Positions 40,621 through 53,795 of a DNA stretch of 64,000 nucleotides are shown piece after piece (positions within the stretch are counted from its first letter, which is position 1; every line of letters begins with the position of its first letter). The position numbers and the translations under genes are program-made. This DNA is from Coptis chinensis (Eukaryota > Streptophyta > Magnoliopsida > Ranunculales > Ranunculaceae): contig CM027382.1 of the NCBI GenBank assembly GCA_015680905.1, forward strand, positions 5,146,001-5,210,000. Reading direction: 5' to 3'. The notes below the pieces were generated by a model. It searched no databases. It saw nothing but the letters and a program-made list of their open reading frames with translations, and was not told the origin of the DNA.

Positions 40621-40900
40621 TAATTTAAAAAAATTAACTTAGGATCCACTTTTAATGAAAAAAATATTTAATAGATCCCACTATTAACTAGATTTGCTTT
40701 TGCCACTTCTGCCACTTAGAGAGGTTAGACTGTTAGAGCGGAATGGTAGAAGCCCAGCATGGCAGGGTGCCATACCAATATTCATTCCTATCCGTGTACC
40801 GCGAATTTATATAAAATTTCCAGCTTTTCTCTGTAAAAAAAAAATCGAAGCAAGCAACGTATCCACACCAAACAAACTCACTCTAGAGCAACTTTTGGTG

Positions 40901-42254
40901 ATGGATCAAACTTCAGAATCTGTTCAACTTGAAGTGATCTTCATACCATTCCTAGCTCCTGGCCATATGATTCCCATGGTAAACATAGCTAGGCTTTTTG
41001 CAACTCACGGAGTAAATGCTACTATCATTACTACCACCTTTGCCTCTATCCAATTCCATAAGGCCTTTACACAAGAGCTAAAATCAGGTAACAAAATTAC
41101 CATTCACACAGTACTATCAGAAGAAGAGAGTGCCTCGCCACAAGGAACAACTGGTGAAGCTTCCTTTTCCAAGGTGACAGATTTAATTGTTTTGATGGCA
41201 ATGCTTCAACCAAAGATTGAACAAGTCATCAGACAACGCCGTCCCCACTGTATCGTTTCTGACATGTTCTGTGCTTGGACTTCTGATATAGCCATCTCCC
41301 TTGGTATTCCTAGACTTGTTTTTTATGGGGTTAGCTACTTGGCTCATTGTTGTACGGAGATTGTTACTGGAGTCCCTCCTGGTTCAGAGGATCCCTATGT
41401 TATTCCAGGCCTTCCGGACAAGATAGAGTTCTTAAGATCACAATTGCATTTCAATGTTAAAACCCTAACGATGTGGTATGATTTCCTTCATGAACTTAGG
41501 GAGGCAGATAAGAAGAGTTTTGGTGTCTTGGTGAACAGTTTCTATTAAATTATACCAAGTTAACTGGAACTAATACATGGCACATAGGGCCATTGCATCA
41601 CATTATCAAGAGATTCAATGTAGAGAAGGCTGATGATGTCAATACTGACGGGCATAATAGTTGTTTGAGTTGGCTTAATACCAAGAAGCACAATTCTGTT
41701 ATGTATATTAGTTTTGGGAGCATGGCAAAATGTAGTTCAGCTCAACTTCTGGAAATTGCATCCGGTCTCGAAGCTTCAGGACACCCCTTCATTTGGGTTG
41801 TTAGAGAGGGTGAGACAACGGTGGGTGAGATAACATTGTTGCCAGAAGGATTGGAGGAAAGAATGACGGAAGGGGACAAGGGGTTGATAATAAAAGGATG
41901 GGCACCACAAATGCTCATCTTGGAACATCCAGCTGTTGGTGGTTTTGGCCAATCACCGCCGAACAATTCTACAATGAAAAGGTTATTACTAAGGTGCTTA
42001 AGATTGGCGTGGAAGTGGGCGTTGAGAAATGGTGTGAGATGACGGTTGAACAAAGTTACTTTGTTACAAGGGGTAAAATAGAGAAGGTGGTAATTCGGTT
42101 GATGGGTGTTAATGAAGTAGCAGATGAGAGGAGAAAGCGTGCTAAGGAGTATGGTCAGATGGCCAAGAGGGCTGTGGAAGATGGTGGCTCGTCTTATGTT
42201 CATCTCGTCTCTCTTATAGACAATCTCAAATCCCTGCCATCTTCCAAAAAATAG
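40901..42254 (+). pseudogene. UGT73-like glycosyltransferase, broken in two places
   Basis: A single-exon family-1 UDP-glycosyltransferase. The start at 40901 gives the usual N-terminus: MDQTSESVQLEVIFIPFLAP, then GHMIPMVNIARLFATHGVNA with the conserved His of the acceptor site. The frame breaks after LVNSFY (41547), where about eight codons expected in this family are missing, and resumes at TWHIGPLHHIIKRF. SWLNTKKHNSVMYISFGSMA and the start of the PSPG box, GWAPQMLILEHPAVGGF, follow. Here about 20 codons, including the HCGWNS core that binds the sugar nucleotide, are deleted with a second frame change. The reading continues as WPITAEQFYNEKVITK to the native end SLPSSKK. The enzyme group glucosylates small molecules such as phenolics and triterpenoids. 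Without the HCGWNS core this copy cannot be active. Confidence 0.9.
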
Positions 42255-46152: not shown

Positions 46153-48160
46153 GCCTCTAATTGTTTTCCTTGTTTTATATGACCCACCCCACATTGCCAT
46201 AGTTTAAACACAATCACTCGATATTCCCTATTTGTTTCAAAAGGGATATGTTAATATGGTGCGGCGTGCGTGCATAATACTTGTTTAGTATTATTATAAG
46301 TATGCAAACCGTTCTACGATCGATATTTAGTATGATTTCTTTAGATTCTAATTGTAAATGATAATTGTAATTATATAGGAGAGACACATCTATTTATTTT
46401 TTAAAACAAAATGGGAGATAATTATGTTATTTAAATGATATTAGAGAGGTTCTTTTAAATTATCAATAATAAAATAAGGTTTGTTTTAATTTCAATATGG
46501 AAAATGGAAATAGCTATTTAATTTAAGTGACATTAGTGAGGTGTTTCTAAATTATTAATAAAAATGGACTTTGTTCAAATTATATGAATAAAAGTGGGGT
46601 TTATTCTAAATTTAGTGAGGGAGGTGTTTCTAAATTAAGTAAATAAGGAGATTTTAAATTGCCTACTCGATATTGGAAAGGGTATTCTGGAAGACCCGGC
46701 TATCATATAGTATAAAGGGTAAGTGTGTTATGGTTGTCTGTCAGTCGGCTTTTATAGAGTGTCACTCGACTTTCATATCAAACCAGGAAACCTCTCACTC
46801 AAATTTTATATTGGCAAATGATAAGGAAAGATTGATCTCTCTAAATTTAGAGCGCACCAAATAGCCACCTATAAGTTTTGGCTCGTATCTCGAGAATGAC
46901 ACTATGACAGACAAAACCAAACCAAACCAAATTTAATATAGAGAATTGAAATGACTTTTAAACCCCTCATCTTCTTCTCCTGATTTAAACATCTTTCACA
47001 AAAGGAAATTCTCATGAAGACGAGAACAGATGGGTTTTGATTATATTTTTATTTAACACAATGGTAGCAAATAATTCATATTTGTTGAAGAATTGAAGAG
47101 ATGCAGAAAATTATAATTTTATTTTGTTTTATAGTACTTTTGTCTTTATTTTTTATTGTTGAACACTTGAACCTACTCACGAAATATTGATGAATTTTAT
47201 CAATACAAATGGATTTTGTGATGTTTTTGTTGATGAATTCTTTCTCTTCTTACATTGATTTTCGTTAAAATTCATTACAAAAAAAGAAAATAACATAGAT
47301 GGATAAGTTATTTTTTAGAGAAAATCTAGTGTGCCAGGAGAAAGAGTGGTGTAGTCAATCGATGCCACTCATCACACCAAAAAGTGTGTGTGTATTTTAT
47401 CATGAAGTAATGTGCAAGGGCCCAGATTCATACGTACCGGTGCAGCAGGCGTATTCTAAAACTGCTATTTTTTTTTATGCAAAATCTATAGTGAGCAAGT
47501 TGTACGTGTGCTCTAGAATCTGAGCCCTCCTATTAACAAAAGATGCGTGTGTACTGCCCCACAAAGTTTTGAATCAAGAGATGAGAATCCAGCACTCAGA
47601 ATCTCTATATTTTTTTATACCACAAAGATGGAGAAGTTGAAGTGTGTTAAAAAGAGAAAGGGGTTAAAGGGTCATTTTGGTATTTATGTCATCTATTTCG
47701 GTCCTTGTGAGTTGCCAATCACCAGGTGAGTTTCCAAATCAAATACGTGGATGAAATCAGCTCCCATCCGACGGCTGATGAAATAGATCTCTCCTTTCCA
47801 TAGAGAGATCAATCTCTCCTTATCAGGACTCTAAACTGCGTTGGACCTTAAAGATTACATAGTAGAACATTCGGTGAATTCCTCACATTGACGCACAGAG
47901 GCGCAAGAATATTAGATGTACTGATAATGGAAAACTGGATATTAGTACCATTTAGAACTGCTTAAAAAAACAAAATCGTAATTCCGTAATTGCTTTTTGA
48001 GCTAAAAGTGCCTATTTACTGCTGGAGTCGACACACATGCAATTGCTCAAGTAAGCAGTTAACGAAAATTGCTTTGTGAAAAGAACCATTTAAAGAAACC
48101 GCAATACAAATTCTAATAAATCCTAAATACTAGAGTTCGTACAACAAGTAATTTTCTTTT
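46153..48160. other. No gene; decayed Helitron-like end and diffuse repeats
   Basis: Near 46270-46330 AAACCGTTCTACGATCGATA resembles a decayed version of the Helitron hairpin end (AAACCCGTTCTATGAACGGG). From 46400 to 46650 similar lines (AGTGAGGTGTTTCTAAATTA) repeat at about 80-110 bp spacing. TGATAAGGAAAGATTGATCT (46819) and AGATCAATCTCTCCTTATCA (47805) form an inverted pair about 1 kb apart. No protein was recognised. Confidence 0.35.
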
Positions 48161-48166
48161 TTCAAT

Positions 48167-50106
48167 CTAAATGCTCATGGGAAATGGATTCAACCTGATT
48201 GAGGGTACAAGCATGAGAGGTTTGGCCTTTGGAACAGTTAATCCAGGCCTTTCACTCATATCAACTACCTTAGGTGCTACCTCATTACCATTGGATGGTA
48301 TACTCCAATCAAAGCCCTGGATCAACAAAGCCAACACTGTAGGAACAACTTGAACAGCCAATGCCACGCCTGGACACCCCCTTCTTCCAGATCCAAATGG
48401 CAAAATATTAAAATGTTGGCCTCTAACATCAACCATACTTGCATTTTCATTACCTGGGCCTTGAGACATGAACCTTTCAGGTTGGAACTTAAATGGGTTT
48501 TTCCAAGTTTTAGGATCTCTACAAATAGACCAATTATTTATGAAAAGAATGGACTTTGCTGGTATGTCATAGCCAGCAACTTTGCAATCTTCTGTTGATT
48601 CTCTTTCAAATATAGGAATTGGTGGGTGAAGTCTAAGTGTTTCTTTGAATATTGCTTGCAAATAAGGTAAATTTGCAATATCAGATTCCTTAACCAACCT
48701 GTTTTTGCCCACAACTGAATCTATCTCTTCTTTTGCTTTTTCCATAAGTGCAGGATTATTAACTAGTTCTGACATTGCCCATTCCACAACAATCCCAGAT
48801 GTATCAGTTGCAGCTGTAAGAAAGTCCTACAGGGAAAAAAAAATATAAAACAAAGATAGAGTTAAGGGACCCGAAAGTAATTGCAGGTATTAAAGGAGGT
48901 TACAAACATTACTTTGACCAAACGCTAATAAAGCCCATTATCAGTTGCGCTTACCATACTTGTGTTAACAAGTTGGATAATTTTACCTAGCAAAGCAACA
49001 AACAATTTTGCTGCTAAAACAACTGAAGTCTAGTAGATTAGTAATATACCATGTACAAGTGATCGATGTTGGAGACTTGGAGTTATGGAGTGTGTATATT
49101 GGACTATTGGTACAATGGTACATGTTGAAGTGATTAATTATTATGAGAATGAGGATGTTTATGTAAAAAAAAATAATGAAAATGAAGAAAGGTCAAAGTA
49201 ACTTACGAACATGAACGCCTTAATATTAGCTCTGGTCAATTTGATTTTCGAGCTCTCATCCTCTGATAGATCAAGCAACATGTCCAGAAAATCCTTGCTA
49301 CTCTTCTCCACTTTCTTCCTTCTAACTTGTTCACGCTCCTTGATAATTTTTTCAAGTAAAGTATCAAATCTGAACTGAATATTCATGGCTCTCTTTTTAA
49401 TTCCTTGCACATCAATATGCCGCAAAAACCAAATAAAATCGGATAAGTTAAACGTTGCAATGATCTCCGTGGCCTCTCGGACTACACTTCTAATCCCCTT
49501 GCCCCATTCATCCTCTCCAGAACACCTAAAGCCCAACATCATCCTAGAAATTATATTGTTCGAAACTTTAGCAACTTCTTCGGACAAATTCACGACTTTA
49601 CCACTATTGGCTTTGTTCAACAATATGCTAATCAGTTCAGAAGCTTCATCAGCTCGAAGGCGTTGTAACTGTGTAAGTGTTCTTTCACCTAGTAATTCAG
49701 TAGTGACAATTTTTTTCATGAACTGCCAGTAAGTACCATAAGGCGCGAAACCAAAACCAGCTGAATCATAAGTTAGGAGATCAATCACAATGTTAACTGG
49801 ACGTGAAGCAAAAGTGAGACCATTAGTAATGAGACATTCTTTTGCAGTTTCAGGCGTAGAAGCGATAATGCAAATTTCTGACCCAAGCCGGAGATGGATT
49901 AATGGACCGTAAAGTTTGCAGAGATTATGGAAAGATGAATGAGGGGTGTTGTTGAGGAGGTGAAGGTGCCCAATAATTGGTAGTCTCATTGGACTTGGTG
50001 GGAGATGCATTTGGCCTAGTTTGGTCTTGGAAAACAAAAAATTTCGACATAGAATTGCTGTAAAGATTAAGAAAGTTATAGTGGAAAAGAGAATTGCCAT
50101 ATCCAT
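48167..50106 (-). CDS. Cytochrome P450, CYP93 family, two exons, apparently intact
   Basis: Exon 1 (50106-49207) encodes 300 residues and ends at GTTC/GTAAGT. Exon 2 (48826-48167) follows a TTTTTCCCTGTAG acceptor and encodes 219 residues, giving a 519-residue protein of normal P450 length. The N-terminal membrane anchor (about residues 4-26) precedes the hinge [17 protein letters not shown]. Exon 2 has the I-helix oxygen-binding motif AATDTS, the K-helix ExxR in [14 protein letters not shown], and the heme-binding loop [10 protein letters not shown] with its ligand Cys. The single phase-0 intron before [10 protein letters not shown] is at the position usual for CYP93. The C-terminus (SIRLNPFP) and DVRGQHF resemble CYP93A, while PPIPIFERE recalls CYP93E, so the subfamily is open. 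CYP93 enzymes oxidise flavonoids, isoflavonoids or triterpenoids at the ER; the substrate here cannot be told. Intron 1 is 380 bp. Confidence 0.93.
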
Positions 50107-50185
50107 GGTGTATAATGAGCTCTAAGAACCGTGTGTGTTATCTAATATATCAACTGATGTACAGCCATCTCTGGGCGGTGGTATA

Positions 50186-50197
50186 CTATTTATAAAG
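50186..50197 (-). promoter_or_regulatory. Likely TATA box of the CYP93 gene
   Basis: Minus-strand CTTTATAAATAG lies about 80-90 bases upstream of the ATG at 50106, leaving room for a leader of about 50 bases. Its TTTATAAA core is exactly the left target-duplication copy of the TIR element at 50197-50978. That element inserted at the TATA box and duplicated it. Confidence 0.65.
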
Positions 50198-50978
50198 GTC
50201 CTGTTACTGCCGGACCCCAATTTGTGTTGGGCGGACTCCCACAAAAAAAACAATTATTATAAGTGTGTCATTGGTTTCAAAAAATCTAAAAAAATTATTA
50301 TTACATGTTATTATTGGTTAAAAAAAATTGAATTCGAAACTCCAAACTTAAACGACCCGGCTAGGTCGTTTGGATTAAGTCCCAAACGACTTGGCCACAC
50401 CGTTTGGGACTTAGTCCAAACGACTTGGCCACACCGGTCAAGAGCCCAAAAAACAGAACTTTGAATTTTTTTCAAAGTTCAAATCCCAAACGACATGGCC
50501 ATATCGTTTTGGACTAAGTCCAAACGGTGTGACCATATCGTTGAAACTTAGTCCAAACGGTGTTGCCATATCGTTAGGGATTTTTCTAAGTTCAAACGGT
50601 GTGGCCATTTTTTTCTAAGTCCAAATCACAAACGACATGGCCACACCGCTTTGGAGTCCAAACGCGCGCCATATCGTTAGGGATTTGAACTTTGAAAAAA
50701 AAATTCAAAGTTCGCTTTTTGGGCTCTTGACCGGTGTCGTTTGGACTAAGTCATTAAATTAAATGGCAAGTCGTTTGGGACTTAGTCAACGACTTAGTCC
50801 AAACGACATAGCCGGGTCATTTAAGTTTGGGGTTTTGAATTCAATTTTTTGGGGACCAATGGCATACTTGTAATAATTGTTTTTTTTTAGATTTTTTGAA
50901 ACCAATGGCACACTTGTAATAATCATTTTTTTTGGGAGTCCACCCAACACAAATTGGGGTCCGTCAATAACAAATACC
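50197..50978. mobile_element. TIR element B (782 bp) in the CYP93 promoter
   Basis: Termini GGTCCTGTTACTGCCGGACC and the inverted GGTCCGTCAATAACAAATACC continue inward as CCAATTTGTGTTGGGCGGAC and its complement. The target duplication TTTATAAA is perfect (50189-50196 and 50979-50986). The interior carries repeated CCAAACGACTTGGCCACACC and AGTCCAAACGG-type blocks in both directions, and inverted AAAAAAATTCAAAGTTC arms. It is a close relative of the nested element at 43863-44972. Non-coding. Confidence 0.9.
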
Positions 50979-50986
50979 TTTATAAA

Positions 50987-51992
50987 AAACAATTTACCGT
51001 TTATTATTGGAAAAAAAAAAAAAAAAAATTACCGTTTTGGGTACCGAACTTGAGTGTTTTTTACACATACCATGTATCACCTGTATATTGCAATGTATGG
51101 CTAAGAACATTCTCATTGCAGTCAAATTTTTTTTTTCACGTAGGATTATTTCCCCTCTTTGCTATCTTTGTGGTGAAAACAAGAAAAGGTTGCCCAATGC
51201 AGGGGTGACTTTAAATCTCGGATGGAATGTTTGATTCCGTTTGAATATAAAAATTGAAAAAACGCATGCAAGATGGAATGAAACATGTCGTCCGAAGTTA
51301 AAAAAAAAACCGAAAAAAAGTCAAAAAACACATGGACAGAATCTAGAAAAAAAAACCGATTTTTTTTTAAAAAACACTGTGAGATGGTTCTATCCGAAGC
51401 TCACAACTCAGTAAAAATCTCAATAGCAAGTGCTACTCTTATTGTGACTTAGTTACAAGTCACCGAGTTTGTCACCTTTACATTGGGCAAGGATTTTTTA
51501 ATATTTAAAGGTGAAAACTCTCAATTTCCCTCCTAATGACTTGAATTGGAAATGCTCTAACATTTAAAGTATTTGCTGACTTGGAATTGAAAACTTTGCA
51601 AAACAAGATATTTCGCAACAGTAAAATTGAAATGTGAAAAACAGTAATCCCCCTAACACACAGTGGACATTCTGTTGGACTTGAACCATGAAAGAAAGAA
51701 ACCAGACTTTGATTCAAGCAACGAATGGAAAGTCTCAAGCAATGCAAGCATTAAACCATCAACAATAAACCATAGATAAGTAATTAGTCACTGGTCATTT
51801 TAATTCATGGAACAGAAGAAAGAGTTATATAACAAGAACACATTCCGTAAAGATTCAACTAATAACAAAGCTATTGAGCATCCATGATTTAGCTACCGAC
51901 CATAGAATTCCAAGCGATTAACTTCCAAATCAATCAACTAAGGGAATAAATTGAACCAAATGAGTATTGGGAGCAACGACCATCAGACCATA
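50987..51992. other. No recognised gene
   Basis: This is the original upstream flank of the CYP93 gene, now pushed beyond the TIR element. It contains A-rich runs (51010, 51300, 51345). I recognise neither coding sequence nor a defined regulatory motif. Confidence 0.4.
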
Positions 51993-52387: not shown

Positions 52388-53795
52388 TTAGGGTTATTAG
52401 TTCAATGCATTTGCATCAAGTTTCTGATTTTCTATTAATTATTCTTTAAGGTTAGTTCAATGTAGTACATTTATTTCCAATTTCTCATTAATTATTCTTT
52501 GAGGTTAGTTCAATACAATAATTGCATCAAGTTTCCGATTTTCCATTAATTATTATTTGAGGTTAGTTCTGTGCAATTGCATCCACTTTATGATTTCCCA
52601 TTTGTTATTCATTAAGGTTAATTCAGTACAGTTGCATCCAGTTTTCGATGTTTCATTAATTAGCCTTTGAGATTAGTTCATTGCATTTGCATCCAGGTTC
52701 CAATCTCCTGTTAATTACTCTTTGAGGTTAGTTCAATACATGTGCATCCAGTTTTTGATTTTCTGTTAATTATTTTTCTAGGTTAGTTCAATAGTTTACA
52801 ATTTATAGCTATTTATACTTTGAGGTCAGTGTGATACAGTTACATCTGGCTTCCATTTCCAGTTAACTATTCTTAGAGGTTATTTCAATGCATTTGCATC
52901 CAATTTATGATTTTTCGTTAGTTAATCTCTGATTTAGTTTAATGCAGTTGCATCCAGTTTCTGATTTTTCAGTATTATTCTTTGAGGTTAGCTTAATGCA
53001 GTTGCATCCAATTTCCGTTTTTATGTTAATTGTTCTTTGAGGTTAGTTCAATGTTTTGCATTAAGTTTTCAATTTTCTGTTAATTATTTTTTTAGATTAG
53101 TTCAATGCAGTTACATCAAATTTATAATTTCCCGTTAATTATTCATTTAGGTTAGTTTAATGCAGTTTCATCCATTTTTCAATATTTTGTTAGTTAGTCT
53201 TTAAGACTAGTTCATTGCATTTGCATCCAGTTTCCGATTTTCCATTAATAACTCTTTAAGGTTAGTTCAATATATCTGCATCTAATTTTTTATTATTTAT
53301 GTTTTGAGGTTAGTTCGCTGCAATTACATCCAATCGTTTCTGATTTTCTGTTAACTATTCTTTGAGGTTATTTCAATGCATTTGCATTTAGTTTATGATT
53401 TTCCACCAATTATTCTATGAGGTTAGTTCAATACAGTTGCATTTGATTTTTTATTTTTTGTTAATTATTTTTAGTTTAGTTCAATGCATTTGCATCTAGT
53501 TTTCAGTTTTCTATTAGTTATTATTTGAGGTTCGTTTGATGTATTTGCATACTATTTCCAATTTCCCTTTAAATATTTTTCAAGGATTTGCATCCAATTT
53601 CTAATTTTTCGTTAGTTATTATCTGACGTTAGTTTAATGCAATTGCATCCAGTTTCGGATTTCTAGTTAATTACTTTTTGAGTTTAGTTTATTGCATTTG
53701 CATAAAGTTTCTAATTTCCCGTTAATTACTCTTTGAGCTCAGTTATGTATTTAAATCCAGTTTCCAATTTTCTTCTAATTATCCAATGGGGTGTG
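52388..53795 (-). repeat. Minisatellite array 1, units of about 55 bp, about 26 copies
   Basis: The unit reads roughly TTGAGGTTAGTTCAATGCAT, TTGCATCCAGTTTCTGATTT, then TCCGTTAATTATTCT. Units differ from each other at many positions, so the array is old or was formed by slow turnover. It lies just inside the 3' subterminal region of Helitron 1. Confidence 0.9.

Follow-up and report, generated by a model that had tools for sequence, protein, structure and literature searches.

The P450 gene and the element beside it

The window, which is the whole analyzed stretch of 64,000 nucleotides from Coptis chinensis, carries a P450 gene on its minus strand and a foldback transposable element close to the start codon of this gene. 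The features of this part are given below by window position.

48167..48826, minus strand: exon 2 of the CYP93-like P450 gene, from the list of open reading frames, the gene model and Pfam
49207..50106, minus strand: exon 1 of the same gene, from the same three sources
50187..50194, minus strand: TATAAATA, putative TATA box at a distance of 88 nt from the start codon
50189..50196, no strand: gene-side copy of the target duplication TTTATAAA
50197..50978, no strand: non-autonomous foldback MITE of the hAT family, 782 bp, from its sequence, its fold and the family copies
50979..50986, no strand: distal copy of the target duplication TTTATAAA

The P450 gene is intact, with two exons which encode 519 amino acids from the ATG at 50106, and its protein gives a single Pfam p450 domain (314.7 bits). 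The closest solved chain is isoflavone synthase 1 (8e83; E 9.9e-123), which we take to be a CYP93C. The preliminary description of this DNA had reported an intact CYP93 gene; the frame is indeed whole and the closest solved chain supports the name, so that the gene is designated here as CYP93-like on the basis of its sequence. Elsewhere in the window, glycosyltransferase-like open reading frames were observed in pieces at 40694-42254, and one of the three which were scanned matches UDPGT with 32 bits.

The limits of the 782-bp foldback element were read from the sequence. It is flanked on both sides by a perfect 8-bp duplication (8 of 8 bases identical) and the duplicated TTTATAAA is a palindrome. 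The left end begins with GGTCCTGTTACTG and the right end, read as reverse complement, with GGTATTTGTTATTG; one G of the GGGTCC end usual in the family is missing in this copy. From each end an inverted-repeat arm extends inwards, and the terminal inverted repeats with an 8-bp target duplication which had been described for the element were found in all their parts. None of the open reading frames of at least 110 aa in the window list overlaps the element, and TATA[AT]A[AT] does not occur within it on the gene strand. The gene-strand RNA of the complete element folds over its full length with -448.6 kcal/mol, as compared with -188.9 kcal/mol for the shuffled element (sd 8.5, n = 20 shuffles; z -30.5). 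The arms make a near-perfect foldback, which agrees with the earlier suggestion of hairpin RNA and could form such a hairpin if it is transcribed.

Read on the gene strand, the duplication beside the gene and the three bases after it give TTTATAAATAG. Six of the eight bases of TATAAATA fall within the duplication, and TATAAATA is the sole match to TATA[AT]A[AT] from the element to the ATG. It had been claimed that the duplication is also a TATA motif 80-90 bases before the start codon and that the motif was retained beside the gene; both points hold, as the motif lies at the distance listed above and the duplication kept it complete there. Since the motif is complete, stands at a plausible place and has no second match in this interval, and since the gene is intact and conserved, the gene-side duplication most likely works as the TATA box of this P450 copy. 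The leader of the window copy also has an upstream ATG at 50168 which opens a frame of 8 codons (50142-50168, minus strand), and it would be transcribed only if transcription starts before 50168.

The motif may instead be a by-product without any role, the gene being driven from elsewhere or unexpressed and the element being neutral or a silencing neighbour. Of random 70-nt stretches taken from the window, 8% contain TATA[AT]A[AT], the upstream side is crowded with repeats, and near-perfect hairpin elements, of which this is one by its z of -30.5, could attract silencing. Against this, the exact TATAAATA is present in just 0.9% of these random stretches, its distance of 88 nt to the ATG resembles the 66 nt of TATATAAA in the closest paralogue, and the frame is intact with a dN/dS between the two copies of about 0.12, a value which averages both copies. 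A motif without a role is considered unlikely.

Family copies, target choice and hAT origin

The copies of the element were searched in the genome assembly (935.6 Mb in 116 contigs), where 40 of 1480 candidates were scored. With this scoring at least 109 matching stretches were found, a count which covers both strands and includes the window, and the best-scoring other copies among the 40 have 87% identity; the exact 22-nt family end occurs 90 times in the genome. The window element is short and non-coding, has inverted ends and occurs in many copies, which are the properties of a MITE.

The ends and duplications were determined by a script in 41 copies (the 40 which were fetched and the window copy), a slide of the ends of at most 3 bases being permitted. 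Both ends were located in 29 of them, and the 8-bp duplication is perfect in 19, with one mismatch in 5, two in 4 and three in 1. No slide was needed in 17 of the 19 perfect cases; a slide of 1 was used for the window copy, owing to its missing terminal G, and for the copy L017.

The choice of targets was surveyed in 100 insertions having the exact 16-nt end, by a search pattern which barred C at the first position; some of the flanks in this set are identical and probably belong to duplicated segments. The 8 duplicated positions and the base outside are 87-98% A/T, and the A/T content falls to 61% at position -10 and 55% at -11. The targets of the family are A/T tracts of 9 bp or more, without preference for a TATA motif. 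It might be supposed from the window case, and from the 5 of 100 other targets which are TATA-like (TATAWA on either strand, e.g. CTATATAA), that this is a promoter-targeting family with a built-in preference for the TATA box. Column shuffles, however, give 8.9 such targets on average, and 1913 of 2000 shuffles reach 5 or more; the TATA-like targets are not enriched, and at the level of target sequence a TATA-targeting family was rejected as extremely improbable; the insertions may still be biased in their distance to annotated genes. As the family shows no such preference, the overlap with the TATA motif in the window is a by-product of its taste for A/T.

The origin of the family was traced through a larger relative. 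An element of 4,629 bp on another contig (C7:28163320-28167948; L093, L047) has both family ends and a perfect 8-bp duplication, TTATTAAT, and the PF05699 match at C7:28165826 falls inside it. Among its open pieces there are matches to hAT-like_RNase-H (97.1 bits) and to Dimer_Tnp_hAT (96.8 bits), its transposase frame is broken by a stop, and its zf-BED match of 20.2 bits stands just below the cut-off of 20.6. Because this relative, the one full-size element in which family ends and transposase were seen together, has the same ends as the window element, the latter is a hAT derivative. The window element is a hAT MITE, and the 8-bp duplication, perfect in 19 of the 29 two-ended copies, is that of a hAT element.

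Searches for hAT and MULE transposases, in each of which 150 candidates were scored (of a MULE total of 4347), were compared with the positions of 113 family ends. Three of 144 typed hAT matches lie within 20 kb of a family end, as compared with 0.70 expected, and one of the three, 2.1 kb from it, is the match inside the 4,629-bp element. For MULE, none of the 149 typed matches among the 150 scored lies within this distance (0.72 expected). A Mutator origin was rejected on these figures and on the 8-bp duplications, and a Merlin origin was rejected as PF12762 (IS1595-type transposase) gives no match in the genome.

The ends and targets of the MITE are atypical for hAT. The Ac-type target consensus is nTnnnnAn, and the family departs from it, since position 2 is T in 55 and position 7 is A in 49 of the 100 targets. 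The Buster-type consensus is nnnTAnnn (PMC3517528), and the family departs from this also, with position 4 being T in 47 and position 5 being A in 37 of the 100. The same paper gives terminal inverted repeats of 5-27 bp and a length below 4 kb as hAT traits (PMC3517528); here the arms span the whole MITE and the full-size element has 4,629 bp. These two traits are descriptive and are outweighed by the transposase match.

The paralogue, the upstream sequence and the order of events

The gene and its surroundings were compared with the closest paralogue, for which the following features are needed.

46799..47831, no strand: interrupted dispersed repeat, adjoining the shared gene block on its 3' side
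47832..50147, minus strand: block common to the paralogue (C6:5412838-5415177), 96% identity over the BLAST alignment
50148..50188, minus strand: leader and core-promoter stretch absent from the closest paralogue, by sequence comparison
51011..51100, no strand: short dispersed-repeat fragment upstream of the element, found at four other places
51102..51560, no strand: second dispersed repeat of about 450 bp, with 40 of 3553 candidates scored, window included

The paralogue (C6:5412879) lies on the opposite strand 217 kb away and has 9 amino-acid differences in 519. The shared block begins 41 nt before the ATG, extends 335 nt beyond the stop codon and ends abruptly at both sides, at 50147 upstream and at 47832 downstream; in 4 of the 5 repeat copies compared, one end of the repeat falls at the 3' limit of the block. 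The identity is 97.8% in exon 1, 96.5% in the intron and 98.6% in exon 2; the 13 differences in 375 intron positions amount to 3.5% for the two lineages together. The values of dN 0.0074 and dS 0.061 suggest that the gene body is under constraint. The paralogue has its own TATA region, TATATATAAA, about 66 nt before the ATG, which is different from the window motif, and the window TATA with its 49-bp context is missing from the paralogue. As the paralogue has a different TATA region, the window TATA is not common to both copies.

Sixty differences between the window copy and the paralogue were listed, several of the 5' rows being local misalignment, and fragments on chromosome 9 (L053, L054) inform 25 of them. 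In late exon 1 and the intron these fragments agree with the paralogue at 16 of 17 informative differences, and in exon 2 they agree with the window copy at 7 of 8. With L051 as an outside copy, 21 of the 60 suggest a change in the paralogue, 9 suggest a change in the window copy and 30 are uninformative; the promoter of L051 gave no usable alignment with the window or the paralogue promoter. The fragments themselves are truncated P450 copies (L053 1231-1662 at C9:74.38 Mb; L054 at C9:48.47 Mb) with 98% and 95% amino-acid identity in the matched parts, and other sequence is joined upstream of the P450 part in both. In L053 this sequence holds a fragment of a KIP1 domain (Pfam KIP1, 51.2 bits) within a single open frame, and L054 resembles its arrangement by eye. 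Both look like gene pieces captured by a transposon.

The preliminary description had further stated that the insertion pushed the whole of the original upstream control region 790 bases farther off. In that form this part is not supported: the match with the paralogue already ends at 50147, the sequence beyond the element consists of repeats and about 60 bp with weak collinear similarity to the paralogue promoter, and the element looks older than the present gene body. The first 115 bases beyond the element include the 51011-51100 repeat fragment, and this fragment holds AAAAAACACTCAAG, bases which are common to the promoter of the paralogue. The alignment with the paralogue promoter, from which the element and the 51102-51560 repeat were left out, consists of three short collinear blocks, and one of the three is repeat-derived. 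The score of the 120-bp promoter stretch is reached by none of 2000 single-base shuffles, and over 1.6 kb of promoter the score is 44 against a maximum of 42 in 200 shuffles. The collinear similarity points weakly to an old shared promoter and, if it is true homology, would favour an old promoter which was interrupted. Farther upstream of the gene, a loose tandem-like array of aggttagttcaatgcatttgcatcc units was seen by eye at 52400-53500.

An unoccupied copy of the site was searched in the assembly with the joined flanks (174 nt), and at that sensitivity none was found; the matches were the window's own flanks and four places with a dispersed-repeat piece of 40-55 nt. A copy of the paralogue promoter is present at C6:5,271,343-5,272,441 (L092 2843-3941), with 89.9% identity over 869 ungapped columns and large gaps besides. 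Its orientation is that of the window gene (minus strand), and it is located some 75 kb upstream of that gene; no part of a gene was seen in the 2.8 kb towards its gene side, and its break is not attributable to a single transposon end. This copy may be the promoter which the window gene lost, or what remains of a third copy.

The age of the element was estimated from its private changes. The comparison covered 28 copies, a small and biased sample of the family selected for resemblance to the window copy. Among them the window element has the second highest value (46 of 649 poorly methylatable columns private, 7.1%) and the second longest end branch (0.084); the argument gives an upper bound, as part of the end branch may have arisen before the element inserted. 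Since the private changes of 7.1% exceed the intron difference of 3.5%, which covers two lineages, these figures are suggestive of an element that probably predates the present gene body, and if the end branch mostly represents time since insertion, the element was present before the gene bodies separated, whether through a transposed copy or through gene conversion. By our own estimate about one third of 8-bp duplication pairs are still identical at 7% per site, and the perfect duplication is therefore compatible with an old element; with 8 of 8 bases identical, it nevertheless suits a younger one.

At about even odds (roughly 0.5), we consider that the MITE inserted into an A/T tract, probably before the present gene body existed, and that its duplication then came to serve as the TATA box when the promoter was rebuilt. 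The hAT foldback MITE entered the A/T tract TTTATAAA and left one copy on each side; by this account the gene-side copy with the next three bases, TTTATAAATAG, would most likely be the core promoter of the P450 copy. The present gene body would be a recent copy of the inverted paralogue 217 kb away, or would have been recently overwritten by it. It is more likely that a rebuilt promoter took over the duplicated target as its TATA box than that the insertion broke up an intact ancestral promoter, and the sequence beyond the element, if it acts at all, would do so from about 790 bp further away.

The opposite order, in which the gene and its TATA box came first and the element then inserted in the TATA box, kept a copy of it and displaced a working upstream region, appears rather unlikely. 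The perfect duplication with its complete TATAAATA would suit it, and so would the three collinear blocks which resemble the paralogue promoter and the 120-bp score that none of the 2000 shuffles reaches. The paralogue, however, lacks the TTTATAAATAG context, the private divergence of the element is greater than the divergence of the gene body, the score over 1.6 kb barely exceeds the shuffle maximum, and one of the three blocks belongs to a dispersed repeat. A more specific form of events, in which the P450 body was placed or converted beside an older hAT MITE, the duplicated target was adopted as core promoter and the paralogue-type remnant stayed about 75 kb upstream, we hold to be unlikely as well.

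Meaning and comparison with known systems

The case is mostly ordinary in kind, being a common hAT MITE beside a gene. If the motif is used, it would provide a clean natural example of a transposon target duplication which doubles as a core promoter, and the near-identical paralogue with its different promoter would serve as a built-in control; if it is unused, this is one more MITE near a gene. The data also present a foldback MITE family which favours A/T tracts and is tied to a hAT transposase. In a narrow literature search of titles and abstract openings, no duplicated target supplying a TATA-like core was found, nor was any paper which combines 'inserted into the TATA' with 'transposable element'.

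Mar of Drosophila is an example of a hAT-derived MITE (PMC3517528), and the present family resembles such elements in being short, non-coding and present in many copies, with inverted ends, an 8-bp duplication and, in this genome, a relative with the same ends which bears a transposase. Unlike them, the family element is one long foldback and does not have short inverted ends only; its two ends differ from each other (GGGTCC.. and GGTATT..), and it targets any A/T tract, fitting neither nTnnnnAn nor nnnTAnnn.

Mutator-like MITEs have long inverted arms, ends starting with G and A/T-rich targets, and the family is like them in all three; the duplication of Mutator (MULE) elements is 9-11 bp, whereas that of the family is 8 bp, and its ends are adjoined within 20 kb by hAT (3 of 144) and not by MULE (0 of 149) matches. 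Plant MITEs also occur inserted in promoters next to genes, and the window MITE is like these in lying less than 100 bp from a start codon; it would differ from them in that the duplicated target itself appears to supply the TATA-like core.
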